A DNA stretch of 24,132 nucleotides from a virus. Each line of letters opens with the position of its first letter. Positions within the stretch are counted from its first letter, which is position 1. The translations under genes and the position numbers were made by a program. Below are positions 2,824-24,132 of this stretch, one piece after another. Location: positions 1-24,132 of IMG/VR virus record IMGVR_UViG_3300042861_000276. One strand, 5' to 3'. Under the pieces are notes generated by a model. That model ran no database searches. It had not been told where the DNA came from and was given only the letters and a program-made list of their open reading frames with translations.

Positions 2824-4095
2824 TTACGAGGTTATGTATTCAATACCGTTTCGCTTAACTTTAAGCGATGGGTCAAGTTTAAGCATCCTATCGACAATCA
2901 CTTGGCAATACTTCGGGTCGAGTTCCATTCCGTAGCATTTGCGTTTAAGCTGGTGTGATGCCACCATTGTTGAGCCGCTACCAAGAAATCCATCTGCAAC
3001 TAATTCTCCAATCTTAGAAGAGTTTTCTATTAATGGTGCTAATAATTTAATTGGTTTCATTGTTGGATGAACATCATTTTTATATGGTTTATCACAATGA
3101 ATAATGGATGTTTTTTGTTTATCAGAAGTTACTTCCTTTATTAAATCTAAAAGTTGCTTTTTGCTTAATTTTTTAAAATCAACTATGTCTTCAATAACAG
3201 TTGTTTTAGTTCTATCGTCAGTAAAATAATGTGCTGCTCCTTCTTTCCAACCATAAAGACACGGTTCGTGTTTCCAGTGATAATCTTGTCTTCCCATGAC
3301 TAATGCATTTTTAACCCATATTAAACATTGTTTTAATAACAATCCTGAATCTTTAAATGCTTGTCTAAAATTAGCACCTTCGCTATCAGCGTGCCAAACA
3401 TACCATGATCCGCCTGATTTTGTATATGATCCTAATGCTGTATAAAAATCGTATAAGAATTGATAAAATAAATCATTTGACATATTATCATTTTCAATTT
3501 TCAATCCATTACCTCCTTCATAATTAACATTATAAGGAGGATCTGTCATAACCATATCGCATAATTTATCTCCAAATAATTTTCCCCAAGTATCAATTTC
3601 TGTTGAGCTTCCACATAATAATTTATGCTGACCTATCTCAAATAAATCTCCAATAACAATATCTGTTTCAATTTCATTAGGTATCTCAAAGTTATCTTCT
3701 TCTGCTACCAATTCTATTATTTCTTCATCAAAGACTGGTACGTCTAACCCCCATGCTTCAAGCTCATCTTTATCCCAATCGTTAGCAAGCATCTGCCAAT
3801 CCCATTCACCTCCGCTCACATTATCTTTAATTAAGAACTCGCGCTGCTGCTCCTCTGTTAAGTTATCTGCAATAATAATCGGCACTTCTTTCAATCCTGC
3901 TTCTTTGCAAGCCTTTAAGCGCATATTGCCGCCAAGCACAACCATATCAGTATTGACTACGATAGGTCGAATGGCAAGCATCTGAGGTAAGTCTTTAATT
4001 GACTGCACCAATTTAGCAAACTTATCATCCTTAATTAATCGAGGATTGTTTGGGTTTACTTTTACATCGCTTATTTTAGCTACTATTGCTTGCAT
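2824..4095 (-). CDS. ParB-like domain fused to DNA (adenine-type) methyltransferase
   Basis: A two-domain protein of 423 residues starting MQAIVAKISDV at 4095, one nucleotide after the stop of the small gene upstream; a longer frame to 4140 would overlap that gene. Residues about 1-110 are a ParB/Srx-like domain with the GGNMRxxAC motif (55-63). Residues about 140-423 are a beta-class amino-methyltransferase with motif IV DPPY (185-188) placed before the SAM-binding motif FLGSGST (370-376). DPPY suggests N6-adenine methylation. ParB-MTase fusions are common in phages, where they may protect phage DNA from restriction or mark packaging or origin sites. The coding DNA from about 2995 to 3725 is much more AT-rich than both ends of the gene, suggesting replacement of the central methyltransferase part. 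Confidence 0.9.
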   Translation of the reverse strand: MQAIVAKISDVKVNPNNPRLIKDDKFAKLVQSIKDLPQMLAIRPIVVNTDMVVLGGNMRLKACKEAGLKEVPIIIADNLTEEQQREFLIKDNVSGGEWDWQMLANDWDKDELEAWGLDVPVFDEEIIELVAEEDNFEIPNEIETDIVIGDLFEIGQHKLLCGSSTEIDTWGKLFGDKLCDMVMTDPPYNVNYEGGNGLKIENDNMSNDLFYQFLYDFYTALGSYTKSGGSWYVWHADSEGANFRQAFKDSGLLLKQCLIWVKNALVMGRQDYHWKHEPCLYGWKEGAAHYFTDDRTKTTVIEDIVDFKKLSKKQLLDLIKEVTSDKQKTSIIHCDKPYKNDVHPTMKPIKLLAPLIENSSKIGELVADGFLGSGSTMVASHQLKRKCYGMELDPKYCQVIVDRMLKLDPSLKVKRNGIEYITS

Positions 4096-4096
4096 A

Positions 4097-4234
4097 TTAT
4101 AATTTTTTCTTTCTGCTCTTAGCAGCCTCTGCTTCTGCAATCGCCACCGCCTGCGCAGCAGGATATCCTTCGCTTACTAACTTGCGAATGTTCATTGCGA
4201 TAATTGCCTGCGAGTCTCCTTGAAATAGTGGCAT
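4097..4234 (-). CDS. Short conserved-looking phage protein (45 aa)
   Basis: A 45-codon open frame, ATG at 4234 and TAA at 4097-4099, ending one base before the ParB-methyltransferase start. The product begins MPLFQGDSQAIIAMNIRKL, then SEGYPAAQAVAIAEAEA, and ends in a basic KSRKKKL tail. This pattern (short N-terminus, NIRKL, G-x-P-x-x-QAVAIA, basic end) matches a type of very small protein commonly seen near head genes of phages, with no known function. A TAnnTTTG promoter-like box lies upstream at 4258-4265. Confidence 0.7.
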   Translation of the reverse strand: MPLFQGDSQAIIAMNIRKLVSEGYPAAQAVAIAEAEAAKSRKKKL

Positions 4235-4242
4235 AGTATCAG

Positions 4243-4554
4243 TTACTTTTTATTATACAAAGATATGTTTTTTGCAATATCAATTTGCTCCTGCGTGAGC
4301 TTCAATCTTACAACCTTGTTATACATTATCACATCAGCGGTAAGGTAGCCGTTATCATCGTGCGTAAGCATTCCAATTAAGTATTCATTAGGCACTTTCA
4401 CTTGTATATCTTGTGAATCTTCAATAATGCGCTGCATCCTTTCTAAGCCAAATCTTACAAGCGCATCCTGAGCACTGCCAATAATAGTCAAGTAACCTAC
4501 GAAGTGATCGTCTTCGATAACGAAGTAGCCACTGCGCCATCTATTTTTTTGCAT
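4243..4554 (-). CDS. Hypothetical protein (103 aa)
   Basis: Starts with ATG at 4554 (MQKNRWRSGYFVIEDD); a GTG two codons earlier is possible. It overlaps the upstream small gene by 14 bp. The protein alternates strands (GYFVIED, VGYLTIIGS, IQVKVPNEYLIGMLTHD, YLTADVIMYNKVVRLKL) and ends in a helix (TQEQIDIAKNISLYNKK). This is a plausible small alpha/beta domain, but I do not recognise it. It sits between nuclease/methyltransferase genes and the packaging genes. Confidence 0.65.
   Translation of the reverse strand: MQKNRWRSGYFVIEDDHFVGYLTIIGSAQDALVRFGLERMQRIIEDSQDIQVKVPNEYLIGMLTHDDNGYLTADVIMYNKVVRLKLTQEQIDIAKNISLYNKK
4258..4265 (-). promoter_or_regulatory. Possible -7 box upstream of packaging genes
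   Basis: On the minus strand the sequence TATCTTTG matches the Bacteroidota -7 consensus TAnnTTTG and would start transcription roughly 15-20 nt before the ATG at 4234. No TTG sits at the ideal 19-nt distance, and the box lies inside the 3' end of the preceding gene, so it may be chance. If real, it separates packaging genes from the early operon. Confidence 0.35.
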
Positions 4555-4717
4555 TGACACGATATTGTAATAAGTATTGTTTAATCATTTCTCTAACTTC
4601 CTCTTTGCGGCTTGCAGGAATCCTCACTGTGAGGTTGCAAGTTGCTTCGCCGTATGCAAACGGCGGACCAGCACCTTCGCGCACTCCGCCTCTACGTTCT
4701 ATCTTTGTTGCTTCCAT
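4541..4717 (-). CDS. Small DNA-binding-like protein (AT-hook-like start, RHH-like core)
   Basis: A 58-residue protein; the start MEATKIERRGG at 4717 is preferred over an upstream ATG at 4756 because it places the conserved element at the N-terminus and leaves a gap after the nuclease stop. GGVREGAGPP is a variant of the GGxRxGAGRP element seen in many small phage regulators, followed by TCNLTVRIPASRKEEVREMIKQYLLQY, a strand then two helices as in ribbon-helix-helix proteins. DNA binding is inferred. A TACCTTTG box ends 6 nt before the ATG, so a nearly leaderless transcript is possible. Confidence 0.65.
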   Translation of the reverse strand: MEATKIERRGGVREGAGPPFAYGEATCNLTVRIPASRKEEVREMIKQYLLQYRVNAKK

Positions 4718-4748
4718 CGAATGCAAAGGTATGAAAAAATAGTTTTGA

Positions 4749-5069
4749 TTACGCAATTACTTTTAAAAATTCTGCTTCACTTCTTACGATGTGGTATTCG
4801 TGCCCAAGCGAAAGGCAGAGCTGTTGGAACTTAACTTGCTCTGGCGACTGCTTTCCAGTTTCGGTCTTCCATTCAATCCAACAAGTTTTGCCTTCGGGTT
4901 TCAAATAACACATATCGGCTACGCCTGATACAACACCCATTGCTTTATTCATTGCGCCTCTTGCGCCTCCTACGCTGTTATTATTTATCGCAAACACGCG
5001 TCCCCGTAGGTCGGGGCGGCTATTCCATAAATTTTGGAATGCCTTAGATTGGATGGTAGCTTCGCTCAT
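4749..5069 (-). CDS. VRR-NUC family nuclease
   Basis: A 106-residue stand-alone VRR-NUC nuclease of the PD-(D/E)XK superfamily. The core is visible as GVVSGVADM (D52), then WIEWKTETG (E66-x-K68), then the Q-rich segment KQSPEQVKFQ, which is the hallmark of the family. The short length is normal for phage members, which are thought to act as structure-specific nucleases or Holliday-junction resolvases in replication and recombination. Its ATG overlaps the TGA of the upstream methyltransferase by 4 bp, so the two are made together. Cleavage specificity cannot be read from sequence. Confidence 0.85.
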   Translation of the reverse strand: MSEATIQSKAFQNLWNSRPDLRGRVFAINNNSVGGARGAMNKAMGVVSGVADMCYLKPEGKTCWIEWKTETGKQSPEQVKFQQLCLSLGHEYHIVRSEAEFLKVIA

Positions 5070-12363: not shown

Positions 12364-12999
12364 TTAAAATGGTGCTTCATTATCATCTTCGCCAAGCCAA
12401 GCGGTTTCAACTGGTGCTCCAACATTAGGCTTAAATGGCTGAGAGATTCTTGCGATGTACTCATCTGAAATCTTGATTTTATCTTGAATAAAGTCGGGCA
12501 ACTTTAAGAAGGTAACTTCATCGTGCTCTTGCGTGTTATACATTAGCGGCTCGTTAAATGCAGGAGGGCAAACTAAGCCTTTAGGAAGCGGCGATATTCC
12601 AATTATGTTAGCGTATGTCGCATCGCCTTTTGTAACGTGGGTGATGTTTAAAAGGCAAGCCTTGCCGATTAATGAGAAGATGTCAAACTTTGCAGCGGTC
12701 TCATCGGGCATCTTCTTTCCTGCCCAAGATTCGATGTCGCGTCTAAGGACCGACTTGCTATTCATTGACAAGTTGTAGATTGCTCTTGCGTAGAAAGGCT
12801 TTAAGCCTTCGCCTTTTTCGAACTCGTAAGTTTCTGTTGGCAGCTCGAATATTAATTGAACTTTGCGTTTCTTGCCTGGAAACTGTCCTTGTTGCATAGT
12901 CGTACCTAAGTCGACAATTTGGTAACATCTTGCAGGAAATGCGCCTTCGGGCGCAATCTGACGGGAGGTGTTATTCCCTACTGGTGCTGTTAAAGCCAT
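12364..12999 (-). CDS. SSB-like single-stranded DNA-binding protein (phage type)
   Basis: A 211-residue protein with a beta-rich core (FPARCYQIVDLGTTMQ, RKVQLIFELPTETYEF, KACLLNITHVTK, YANIIGISPLP) and an acidic C-terminal tip ending EDDNEAPF, which resembles the DDDIPF-type tail through which SSB proteins recruit partner enzymes. Proteins of this size and tail occur at this spot in many phages with exonuclease and primase-helicase genes. Binding to ssDNA is inferred from the tail, the core pattern and the neighbourhood; a different replication accessory protein is the main alternative. Confidence 0.65.
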   Translation of the reverse strand: MALTAPVGNNTSRQIAPEGAFPARCYQIVDLGTTMQQGQFPGKKRKVQLIFELPTETYEFEKGEGLKPFYARAIYNLSMNSKSVLRRDIESWAGKKMPDETAAKFDIFSLIGKACLLNITHVTKGDATYANIIGISPLPKGLVCPPAFNEPLMYNTQEHDEVTFLKLPDFIQDKIKISDEYIARISQPFKPNVGAPVETAWLGEDDNEAPF

Positions 13000-13318: not shown

Positions 13319-13337
13319 GGGCGGTAATTAGCCGCCC
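13319..13337. other. GC-rich perfect hairpin between early genes
   Basis: GGGCGG (13319-13324) pairs with CCGCCC (13332-13337) around the 7-nt loop TAATTAG. Neither strand has a strong T tract after it (leftward side ACTATTTTAA), so it is a weak terminator at best and may act as an attenuator or RNA-stabilising stem after the first early gene. Confidence 0.5.
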
Positions 13338-13346
13338 GATTAGTGA

Positions 13347-13541
13347 TTAGTGATTAATATCGTTGCCAAGTTTATAAGCGCATAAGATAACTCCTTCAAG
13401 TTTTTTCATAGAAGTTACTAATCCATTGCCCGTATAAATTACATAAATAGTATTTTGTAATTTCCAAGATAATTCTCTTGCTTCCTCTGAAACAAGTTTA
13501 TAACTTAAAGTTTCTTTGATGTTTGCTGTTTCGATTTTCAT
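13347..13541 (-). CDS. First gene of leftward early operon, hypothetical (64 aa)
   Basis: The start MKIETANIKETLSYK at 13541 follows the conserved promoter by about 30 nt; an in-frame ATG at 13577 would fall inside the promoter region and is rejected. The product has a helical segment (SEEARELSWKLQ), then strands (TIYVIYTGNGLVTSM) and a helix (LEGVILCAYKLG). Unknown family. Being first behind a strong early-type promoter makes it a candidate host-takeover or regulatory protein. Confidence 0.65.
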   Translation of the reverse strand: MKIETANIKETLSYKLVSEEARELSWKLQNTIYVIYTGNGLVTSMKKLEGVILCAYKLGNDINH

Positions 13542-13551
13542 AGTGAGTAAA

Positions 13552-13604
13552 TGTTTGATTGAATAATTATAGGGCAAATGTAAAACTATATTTTAAATAC
13601 GCAA
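13552..13604 (-). promoter_or_regulatory. Conserved early promoter/operator, leftward copy
   Basis: On the minus strand TTG (13604-13602), exactly 19 nt, then TACATTTG (13582-13575): a perfect fit to the Bacteroidota consensus TTG-N19-TAnnTTTG. The spacer holds an odd palindrome TATTT-A-AAATA, and GCCCTATAATTATTCA follows the -7 box, including the palindrome ATAATTAT near the expected start of transcription. The whole ~50 bp matches the block at 23508-23560 with about five mismatches. Conservation of the spacer and downstream part, not just the core boxes, suggests a shared regulator binding site. Confidence 0.85.
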
Positions 13605-13681
13605 TACATAAACAAAAATAAATGCAAAGTTTTTTCACCTCGCAATGCAAGTTGTTGATAATCAGCCTATTTATTTTGTGC

Positions 13682-14305: not shown

Positions 14306-14447
14306 CTTTTATGAGTTTAAAAAGTTTCTTCTTGCTCTTTACCAGTAGCCGCTTATCCTTAACTTCCGCCTCTAAAATATTGAGTGCCACGCAAACGGGC
14401 ATAAAGTTCTCAACTACGTGCAGCGATAGCTTCTCCTCAATTGTCAT
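14247..14447 (-). CDS. Small helical protein (66 aa)
   Basis: Starts MTIEEKLSLHVVENFMPVCVAL at 14447 with an ATGA overlap to the PAS-HisKA gene, and overlaps the spanin-like gene by 59 bp. It is helical and basic in the middle (KDKRLLVKSKKKLFKLIKDGF). The tight coupling argues it is real. Function unknown; because it is coupled to the HisKA protein it could be its partner. Confidence 0.6.
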   Translation of the reverse strand: MTIEEKLSLHVVENFMPVCVALNILEAEVKDKRLLVKSKKKLFKLIKDGFQQAINNNLPHTAAALN

Positions 14448-15004
14448 ATCTCGCGCGATGCTTTTTTTATCAATTGGCGCATTGCCTCATCGAGTTTATC
14501 AACGCAGGCATCCACCATTTCGAGCAGCGCAATCTTCTCATCATCGACATTTGTATCGCGTAGCATCTGAGTTAATGGCTTGATGTTTACGAATGGCTGA
14601 CGTAACTCGTGCGATAAGATAAATCGAAACTCCTCAAGCAATGCTCTTTGCCTTTCGTATTCGTGCGCAGTGATACTGGAAACATCTACGAGCTGAATGC
14701 CTATAAAAGTTATTCGAGTGCCAATTGCGAAGCAGTTCCATACATTATAGCGATGCACTAAGTTCTTATGCTTTGTTCTCGCGTAAACTCTTGCAGGATC
14801 AGGCGATTGTTTCTTGGCTTTTTTTATTGCCTCGATAAAATCTTCGCGGTCAGTTTCAATATCGATTATGTCGATAATCTTCTTAGGCTGAATGTGGCTA
14901 ACATAGCTTTTAAATAAGCTATTATTGGTTATTATGTTGCCGTCCATATCGGTAACAACATAAAACAAATCCAAGTTATTCTCTAAGATGAATAGTAGAG
15001 ACAT
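14444..15004 (-). CDS. PAS-HisKA protein lacking a kinase ATPase domain
   Basis: A 186-residue soluble protein. Residues about 1-112 look like a PAS domain (NLDLFYVVTDMDGNIITNN near the start, then FIGIQLVDVSSIT). Residues 113-186 are a histidine-kinase dimerisation/phosphoacceptor domain with the H-box FILSHELRQPFVNI (H132) and a second helix after a short turn (DDEKIALLEMVDACVDKLDEAMRQL). The protein ends there: no N, G1 or G2 boxes of a HATPase follow, in this or the next gene. So it cannot phosphorylate itself, but it could accept phosphate, dimerise with a host kinase or block one. It sits inside the lysis cassette, overlapping the upstream gene by 22 bp and coupled to the next by ATGA. 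Confidence 0.8.
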   Translation of the reverse strand: MSLLFILENNLDLFYVVTDMDGNIITNNSLFKSYVSHIQPKKIIDIIDIETDREDFIEAIKKAKKQSPDPARVYARTKHKNLVHRYNVWNCFAIGTRITFIGIQLVDVSSITAHEYERQRALLEEFRFILSHELRQPFVNIKPLTQMLRDTNVDDEKIALLEMVDACVDKLDEAMRQLIKKASREI

Positions 15005-20929: not shown

Positions 20930-21010
20930 TTATTGCGTAAGAAGATTATCTCCGCTTTCACTCAACAGCTCATCTGAATCTTCGCTCAGTAGAGGCTGTG
21001 AGTCAACTAC
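20930..21010 (-). other. Possible -1 frameshift extension of the capsid protein (26 codons)
   Basis: The capsid frame ends AAC CCG TAG. The heptamer A-AAC-CCG (21016-21010) fits X_XXY_YYZ exactly. In the -1 frame the sequence is open for 26 codons, VVDSQPLLSEDSDELL then SESGDNLLTQ, and ends with TAA at 20930-20932, four bases from the terminator stem. No ATG, GTG or TTG start exists in this frame after the preceding in-frame stop, so frameshifting is the simplest way to translate it. The product would be an acidic tail with repeated LLSE/LLTQ units. A low-level longer capsid form, as in phage T7 gene 10, is the model. Confidence 0.5.
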
Positions 21011-22050
21011 GGGTTTACAATTGAAACGCAGTTTACATAGTTTACACCTGCAAACTTATCTGATGCCTCATAAATATCAGTTGGCAATGCCGCGATGATA
21101 CCAGTTGTAGTCATTACAATTGATAAGTTACCGCAATCATCCTTCATAGTCAAGTCAACTGGCAAGCCTGCTGGCGTAAACACCAAAGTCTTAGAGTAGT
21201 TGCTTCCTGCTACTGGAGTGATTCCTGCATTCCACTCAGCTAAGTTGAATGATAACCATTGGATTGCTCCTGCTGTTGTTATCAACGCTTTGTTTTGTGA
21301 ACCTTGTGCAGCAGCTAATCTTGAATCGTAAGCAAAGCCGAAACCGTTTTGCTGAGTGATTGCAAGTAAGTCGATGCCGTACTGAGTGCAGCACCCTGCT
21401 GCCATCGCGTTAGCATATCTTTGCATTGCAGCACCACCGAAAGCAATTGGAGCAGCAGGATAGTTTGCCATTCTTGTAGCTTGCTGAATGTCAGCGATAG
21501 CGAAAGCGTTAGGCTCATTAGTTCCTGCCATTGTTGAGATAACTAAGCAGTCAGAAGTTACAGTGTAGAAACCTTCAACATCAGTTCCCCAGTTACCGAT
21601 TGCAGCAACCGCTTGAACAGCAGCAGCAGAAGCAACCTTTCTATCTAACACATCCATCAAGCGCATAATGCTTTCAAGCACATAGCGGCTGTTCTCTTGA
21701 CAATGGCGAGCGATGTCCGCTGCATTGATTAATTGAGACGCTGTGTAAGTGTCAGTAGTTTCAACTGTGTAAGTTGTAGTTGTATCTCCGTAAGTGTTAT
21801 CGGAAGTACAAGTTAAGATGTTACCACCTTCCTCAACTTCCGTCTCAGGTAAGCGTTGAATCCAACGAGCTTGAACAGTTTTAAGTTTCCCGTTGCCCGG
21901 CGCAACTTCTGTTCTGATTAACTTAACATTCTCAGGAGACAATAAGAACTCTAAGAAAGGCAGTTGCTCGCGTTGACCAACTTCGATAAATAATTCGCCT
22001 AACGACATCTGTACGTTAGGACATTCTGATAAAATTCTTGAAATAGACAT
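21007..22050 (-). CDS. Probable major capsid protein
   Basis: 347 residues starting MSISRILSECPNVQMSLGEL. It follows a scaffold-like gene, has its own promoter and terminator, and has the size and composition of a capsid subunit: a helical N-terminus, then beta-rich regions (TDTYTASQLINAADIARHCQENSRYVLESIMRLMDVLDRKVASA is a long central helix area near 100-145), and a threonine/alanine-rich second half (GAIQWLSFNLAEWNAGITPV, LVFTPAGLPVDLTMKDDCGN). HK97-fold membership is suspected but not provable by eye. Monocistronic expression between two terminators fits a highly expressed product. See the frameshift entry for a possible longer form. Confidence 0.7.
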   Translation of the reverse strand: MSISRILSECPNVQMSLGELFIEVGQREQLPFLEFLLSPENVKLIRTEVAPGNGKLKTVQARWIQRLPETEVEEGGNILTCTSDNTYGDTTTTYTVETTDTYTASQLINAADIARHCQENSRYVLESIMRLMDVLDRKVASAAAVQAVAAIGNWGTDVEGFYTVTSDCLVISTMAGTNEPNAFAIADIQQATRMANYPAAPIAFGGAAMQRYANAMAAGCCTQYGIDLLAITQQNGFGFAYDSRLAAAQGSQNKALITTAGAIQWLSFNLAEWNAGITPVAGSNYSKTLVFTPAGLPVDLTMKDDCGNLSIVMTTTGIIAALPTDIYEASDKFAGVNYVNCVSIVNP

Positions 22051-23439: not shown

Positions 23440-23458
23440 AATGTAGTAGGTCATTTGA

Positions 23459-23466
23459 CAAAGATA
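23459..23466 (-). promoter_or_regulatory. Leftward -7 box before scaffold operon
   Basis: TATCTTTG on the minus strand, 4 nt before the ATG at 23454 and about 20 nt before the ATG at 23439. No good TTG is found near 19 nt upstream. It forms a divergent pair with the rightward promoter at 23508-23560. Confidence 0.45.
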
Positions 23467-23507
23467 AATATATTTTGAAAATAAATTACATAATTATTTT
23501 GTTAATG

Positions 23508-23560
23508 TGTTGCATATTTAAAATATAGTATTATATTTGCCCTATAATTATTCACTCAAA
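23508..23560 (+). promoter_or_regulatory. Conserved early promoter/operator, rightward copy
   Basis: TTG (23510-23512), exactly 19 nt, then TATATTTG (23532-23539). The spacer has the TATTT-A-AAATA palindrome and the -7 box is followed by CCCTATAATTATTCA. It is nearly identical to the leftward block at 13552-13604. It would start transcription around 23545, giving a leader of about 25 nt to the ATG at 23572. Confidence 0.85.
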
Positions 23561-23571
23561 AAATCGAAAAC

Positions 23572-23953: not shown

Positions 23954-24132
23954 ATGAGACACCGCCTTAGAATTATTGACTGCACCCGATGTGAGGGTGC
24001 AGGCTTTGAGCTTGAGCACCCGATACATTGCTTTATAAACGATTGCGAGCTTTCAACTATTTGCAGCGATTGCACCGATGATTGCAAAACAAAGCATACA
24101 ACCGAGTGCCGCCAGTGCGATGGCACTGGAGA
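23954..24132 (+). CDS. Cysteine-rich protein, cut by right edge
   Basis: Starts with ATG at 23954, one base after the previous stop, and remains open to the window end (59 codons). It is dense in cysteines: DCTRCEGAG, IHCF, NDCEL, TICSDCTDDC and ECRQCDGTGE. The C-x2-C-x-G-x-G units recall the DnaJ-type zinc finger found in small phage proteins. Co-transcribed with the preceding gene. The C-terminus and function are unknown. Confidence 0.65.
   Translation, partial: MRHRLRIIDCTRCEGAGFELEHPIHCFINDCELSTICSDCTDDCKTKHTTECRQCDGTG

Follow-up and report, generated by a model that had tools for sequence, protein, structure and literature searches.

Duplicated host-type early promoters as probable fixed docks for exchangeable small genes in a family of uncultured phages

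A phage fragment of 24,132 bases from an IMG/VR record (the window, by which we mean the whole stretch analyzed) carries two copies of a promoter-shaped block on opposite strands, and the first gene behind each copy is replaced by unrelated genes in related phages. We think it probable that these blocks are duplicated early promoters, read by the host RNA polymerase, which provide small, exchangeable genes with a fixed place to dock. Each block would be a strong, probably early promoter recognized by the primary RNA polymerase of the host (sigma-ABfr type); its short, unstructured, G-poor leader would suit any gene, and a single-gene slot would follow. Promoter and leader stay in place, while the ORF in the slot is exchanged, nearly codon-exactly from start to stop, for unrelated small ORFs; these would come from a pool common to different clades and to several such slots.

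The first-pass annotation had described twin blocks of ~52 bp, each with an exact TTG-N19-TAnnTTTG. This motif does have two exact matches in the window, on the strands described (13604–13575, minus; 23510–23539, plus); since 0.61 sites are expected there by chance, the two boxes alone prove little. The 45-nt block TTGNNTATTTAAAATATAGTNTTAYATTTGCCCTATAATTATTCA is confined to the same two places within the window and had no match in 100 dinucleotide shuffles, even when 3 mismatches were allowed. A comparison without preset limits returned the two copies as a 64-nt inverted repeat that is 91% complementary (Table 1). The twin block is real, and its extent was underestimated, as it runs further upstream than described. 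As had also been claimed, both copies are promoter-shaped and lie just 5' of genes on the correct strands. They are 9.9 kb apart in the window and ~10 kb apart in relatives. The search for more copies that the annotation had called for found just these two in the window, and both sites recur in related contigs (L004, L005, L037, L043, and L045), which argues that the twin block is no assembly accident.

Table 1. Positions of the promoter blocks, slots, and neighboring features in the window.
Feature	Position	Strand	Basis or remark
Copy 1 of block: upstream T-tract, TTGC, spacer, -7 box, leader start	13554..13617	minus	inverted repeat with copy 2; present in relatives
Copy 1 -33 element TTG, then C	13602..13604	minus	sequence
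Copy 1 -7 element TACATTTG	13575..13582	minus	sequence
Copy 1 leader, 33 nt, G-free	13542..13574	minus	fold 0 kcal/mol (13542-13572 folded)
Slot 1 cargo ORF, 64 aa (MKIETANIKETLSYK...)	13347..13541	minus	unrelated ORFs take its place in relatives
Terminator-like hairpin GGGCGG-7-CCGCCC, past the cargo and before F0	13319..13337	minus	-12.3 kcal/mol, z -3.45; terminator scan
Conserved first gene F0 of replication operon, 99 aa	13005..13304	minus	comparison of sites
Gene F1, second in the operon, similar to putative ssDNA-binding proteins	12364..12999	minus	sequence similarity
-7 box TATCTTTG of divergent structural-operon promoter, ATG 4 nt downstream	23459..23466	minus	sequence
Inverted repeat AAAATAA-9-TTATTTT, ~-54 from copy 2 start, overlaps divergent structural promoter	23478..23500		sequence; class tested in relatives
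Copy 2 of block	23497..23560	plus	64-nt inverted repeat
Copy 2 -33 element TTG	23510..23512	plus	sequence
Copy 2 -7 element TATATTTG	23532..23539	plus	sequence
Copy 2 leader, 32 nt	23540..23571	plus	kept to ATG in most close relatives though gene changes
Slot 2 cargo ORF, 126 aa	23572..23952	plus	replaced in relatives
Cys-rich gene F3, conserved second gene of copy 2 operon, runs off window	23954..24132	plus	comparison of sites

We collected relatives through the putative major capsid protein (21007–22050, minus strand), so called from the position of its gene; IMG/VR contains 213 relatives of this protein, and we retrieved 80 of them. It gave no PHROG match, and no relative was found among isolated phages or in 84,980 bacterial genomes, so host identification through this protein was dropped. 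By the number of these capsid relatives in IMG/VR, the phage family is apparently abundant, and it is without an isolate. The longer relatives are mostly 34–37 kb, and a terminal repeat of 126–127 bases, as in circular assemblies, was present in four of the ten records inspected. The primase is similar to those of Nonlabens, Cellulophaga, and Flavobacterium phages, and both this resemblance and the type of promoter suggest a host in the Bacteroidota. The blocks had been thought to serve two divergent arms, one of them replicative. The copy 1 operon does hold replication genes; the picture of two arms did not survive, because G001, the near-complete relative closest to the window, has almost all of its genes on one strand, and the copy 2 operon, an exception, comprises only three small genes (~0.7 kb). 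Elsewhere in the window, Pfam places a ParB-N domain fused to an N6/N4 DNA methylase (2824–4140, minus), and a small protein near the lysozyme gene (14444–15004, minus) has a weak HisKA match below the cut-off (E 4e-5).

The promoter type of both blocks is already known: promoters of the sigma-ABfr type (TTTG/TAnnTTTG) have been collected in Bacteroides (PMC7366714), and those of Flavobacterium johnsoniae have TAHHTTTG, a start 4–5 nt past this box, and a mean leader of 33 nt (PMC6847099). We number positions after the latter study, with the box at -12 to -5 and the start 4–5 nt further. Both blocks share with this type the -7 box TAHHTTTG (TACATTTG and TATATTTG are without G at both n positions), a TTG near -33 at N19, an AT-rich spacer, and a leader of ~33 nt. 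They differ in having a fixed TYAAA, the N19 spacing, and upstream tracts, and whereas the -33 motif is much less evident in F. johnsoniae (PMC6847099), the phage TTG is present in a fixed register. Judged from its sequence, each block would be a strong-looking Bacteroidota-type promoter (TTG-N19-TAYATTTG), and the genes downstream suggest that it acts early.

Much of this architecture is kept across the family. We profiled the early class on 22 non-redundant sites, at loci chosen by capsid only; because these sites were picked on TTG, TYAAA, and the box, the free columns are the others. Upstream, the profile has an A-tract (-65 to -60), a T-tract (-51 to -44), and G-37 T-36 A-35; its core consists of TTGC (-34 to -31), TYAAA (-26 to -22), GTT (-16 to -14), and an A at -9 in the box. 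The upstream A/T tracts recur across this uncultured 34–37-kb phage family. Among 41 sites chosen just by box, G-poor leader, and ORF, 23 have the TTG at N19, and TYAAA occupies the same spacer position in 19 of 23 non-redundant TTG-N19 sites, compared with 1.3% of shuffled spacers. The claim that conservation extends beyond the two core boxes therefore holds, and spacer conservation is family-wide, as TYAAA rather than as a palindrome. The expectation that relatives would keep both spacer and start region was right for the former; identity of the start region between the two copies is confined to the close clade, outside of which only its G-poor composition and its length are kept. Early leaders are 23–37 nt long and unfolded (0 kcal/mol), with 4.5% G versus 22% in the genomes. 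We also considered whether the upstream T-tract is solely the tail of a structural-operon terminator. At some copy 1 sites a hairpin does accompany the tract, but copy 2 carries this tract and no hairpin, which makes a promoter role for the tract more likely.

The promoters of structural genes form a contrasting class, with no clear TTG, no upstream tracts, and a C at -9 in 96%. The ATG lies 4 nt past the box in 60 of the 73 cases counted, so structural mRNAs should be leaderless. The structural-operon promoter that diverges from copy 2 (TATCTTTG-N4-ATG; 23454–23466, minus), predicted to give a leaderless late mRNA, is kept across the family, and a third promoter, before the gene near 4541–4756, has similarly short spacing.

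The first gene behind the early promoters is hypervariable, a feature absent from the first-pass annotation. Over 153 non-redundant sites, part of which were fetched with promoter patterns and include some unrelated phages, it falls into 81 families, and the probability that two sites have the same family, P(same), is 0.014; very distant relatives may be split among these, because the families were defined by BLASTP at 1e-3. The second and third genes of the same set give P(same) values of 0.185 and 0.206. The 28 copy 1-type sites in or near the close clade have many unrelated first genes, mostly followed by F0, F1, and F2. At nine copy 2 sites there are eight first-gene families, and the Cys-rich F3 comes next for seven of these; in the window and in L207, the next gene was judged by eye to be F3. 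Cargo is missing from nine copy 1-type sites and consists of two genes at eleven, with the assignment of slot type limited at many sites where contigs end. In some clades (G200, G199, G193, and L041), a single record has three or four early promoters, and a separate slot gene lies behind each one.

Comparison of closely related sites shows how sharply the variable segment is delimited. Among the 56 sites preceding F0, there are 161 pairs whose F0 proteins are at least 85% identical, and the cargo is common to 15 of these pairs; in some pairs, F0 is 99% identical and the cargo is unrelated. Where cargo is shared, it is more alike than F0 in all 36 pairs listed (for example, 90% versus 59%), which we read as the mark of transfer. 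Pair identity is 0.80–0.90 in the promoter and 0.69–0.78 in the leader, drops to 0.57 and 0.53 at the ends of the cargo (0.53 when shuffled), and beyond them is back at 0.77 and 0.90. The collapse of similarity is bounded by the start and stop codons, and identity inside the ORF is at the shuffled level. Promoter identity is the same whether cargo is shared or not (0.71 versus 0.71), and leader identity hardly differs (0.54 versus 0.51). The equal promoter identity rules out a promoter that travels with its cargo and argues that the ORF moves by itself. Certain cargo families occur at more than one slot type, four of them by slot label (F7, F10, F27, and F51) and two by neighboring genes (F16 and F46). 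Short TCACT repeats often flank the slot 1 ORF in the close clade, possibly as microhomology.

The cargo proteins are 46–158 aa long (median 69), of mixed charge, and have no predicted membrane segments. Searches of Pfam, PHROGs, NCBIfam, and PADLOC gave few, weak, and scattered matches and no recognized function, and no anti-defence family was recognized among the 75 cargo proteins searched. The cargo would most likely be an anti-defence or host-takeover protein.

At most copy 1-type sites, a perfect GC stem lies between the slot 1 cargo and F0. Its sequence varies (GGGCGG/CCGCCC, 39; AGGGAGG/CCTCCCT, 11; GGGGGC/GCCCCC, 6; GGGCAG/CTGCCC, 5; AGGGAG/CTCCCT, 3) while pairing is kept, which indicates compensatory changes. 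A T-rich tail follows in 38 of 64 hairpins; under the rule used, the other 26, among them the frequent GGGCGG form of the close clade, are without a clear one, so termination may be partial. At slot 1, this hairpin would act as a terminator or attenuator for most transcripts, so that cargo mRNA would be abundant while fewer transcripts continue into the replication operon. The Cys-rich gene lies directly 3' of the cargo at slot 2.

We weighed three other explanations. Inverted orientation, a distance of 9.9 kb, and 91% identity are what would be seen if the 64-nt repeats acted as recombination arms and flipped the structural block of ~10 kb. Among relatives selected by capsid protein, however, copy 1-like sites lie on the capsid-gene strand in 18 of 18 cases and copy 2-like sites on the opposite strand in 13 of 13, no inverted arrangement was seen, and copies 1 and 2 diverge more in distant clades. 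We regard inversion as extremely improbable and dropped it. The blocks might instead be ordinary strong host-type promoters whose spacer and leader identity reflects a recent duplication in this clade. The extended form TTGN5TCAAAATANNGTTNTACATTTG does occur in bacterial chromosomes, with four exact matches in a 257-Gb genome collection, all in Bacteroidales (including Paludibacter and Prevotella) and one of them upstream of rho. This site (L090, 7705–7734), whose downstream gene resembles rho, offers a natural host comparison for the phage promoter. Furthermore, a scan of 149 Bacteroidia genomes gave 13 sites among the matches listed and none for reversed-pattern controls, and the looser form has seven matches and no controls in one 4.2-Mb Bacteroidales genome, picked for holding a match. 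But the extended form, rare in chromosomes, is common in viral contigs (65 matches in the viral collection, one to four in each relative that has any), and the looser form has 46 matches versus no controls in 36 related records (~1.1 Mb). These counts suggest that hosts use such promoters rarely and these phages heavily. A distant BLASTN search of isolated phages found no copy of the block. TYAAA persists family-wide in both copies and at other sites, which argues that it is selected and not merely recently copied, and a host-type promoter with recent duplication leaves the slot unexplained. We consider this account somewhat unlikely.

The remaining possibility is a phage-wide operator, at which one phage or host regulator would bind both blocks and switch both operons. 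The first-pass annotation had proposed two palindromes for this role, TATTT-A-AAATA in the spacer and ATAATTAT near the start. Both are present in the window, but the spacers of relatives read TAATTAAAATA, GATTCAAAATA, or GAATCAAAATAA, and ATAATTAT is absent from the leaders of distant relatives; neither being conserved, we discarded them as operators. The proposal can be kept by moving the site upstream, where conservation extends beyond the core boxes (about -65 to -35). An A-tract/T-tract inverted repeat (AAAATAA-N6 to 9-TTATTTT), counted when its arms reach 7 or more, is found there in 13 of 51 regions versus 1.8 when shuffled, often centered near -54.5 and at copy 1, copy 2, and other sites. 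Its role might be that of an UP element or of a site bound by a protein; A/T tracts at -40 to -65 also resemble an UP element for the alpha subunit of the polymerase. In the window, moreover, the repeat is distinct at copy 2 but weak at copy 1, and we could link no regulator to the site. From -12 to +21 relative to the TTG, the two copies are slightly more alike within than between genomes (6 of 720 permutations with six genomes). Conversion or a common binding partner could explain this, but the region was picked after the fact, and in so small a test concerted evolution of the copies is suggestive at most. We judge a phage-wide operator unlikely. If the blocks are docks, the likeness of the copies around the start in the close clade needs no operators, because this region would be the common part of two docks.

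We conclude that the simplest account is an exchangeable ORF set in a fixed expression frame, which consists of promoter and leader plus an attenuator or terminator at slot 1. More tentatively, it is possible that standardized docks, each a fixed promoter with a universal leader that runs up to the start codon, swap single ORFs from start to stop across docks and lineages, and so sample a large, probably counter-defence pool with regulation untouched. With the DNA sequence alone, the early genes that change fastest in this family can be located by taking the first ORF past TTGCnnAnTYAAAA...TAYATTTG. The 81 families found in this way, almost all without recognized relatives, are prime candidates for new anti-defence proteins, and the promoter-leader pieces are candidate expression parts for Bacteroidota.

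Three known systems resemble this arrangement. PeSL cassettes were reportedly described by Arbiol in 2010 and Comeau in 2014. They are composite promoter/stem-loop cassettes of T4-like phages, and gene shuffling around such repeated motifs is known (PMC4503421). The likeness lies in a repeated early promoter and a stem-loop that accompany genes exchanged among relatives, and the window has two promoter copies, each with a hypervariable first gene. The phage group is unrelated and its polymerase specificity different: ours are phages of 34–37 kb whose capsid protein has no PHROG or isolate match and whose primase is of the Flavobacterium/Cellulophaga/Nonlabens type. There are here one or two genes per slot, the stem-loop lies mainly behind the cargo (some copy 1 sites have a hairpin just upstream as well), and the promoters stay when the cargo moves. 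In the gene 0.3 slot of T7 and T3, a variable first early gene, encoding Ocr or a SAM hydrolase, stands behind strong host-read promoters. The docks share with it a first early gene behind promoters of this kind that differs between close relatives; they differ from it in having far more alternatives, several slots per genome, and cargo of no recognized function. Phage moron loci place an additional gene, equipped with a promoter and a terminator of its own, amid conserved genes. The slots share these traits, but their regulatory frame does not change and is itself the promoter of core operons, and only the ORF is exchanged. The docks thus differ from the known slot systems in host group, in layout, and in a promoter that stays behind.
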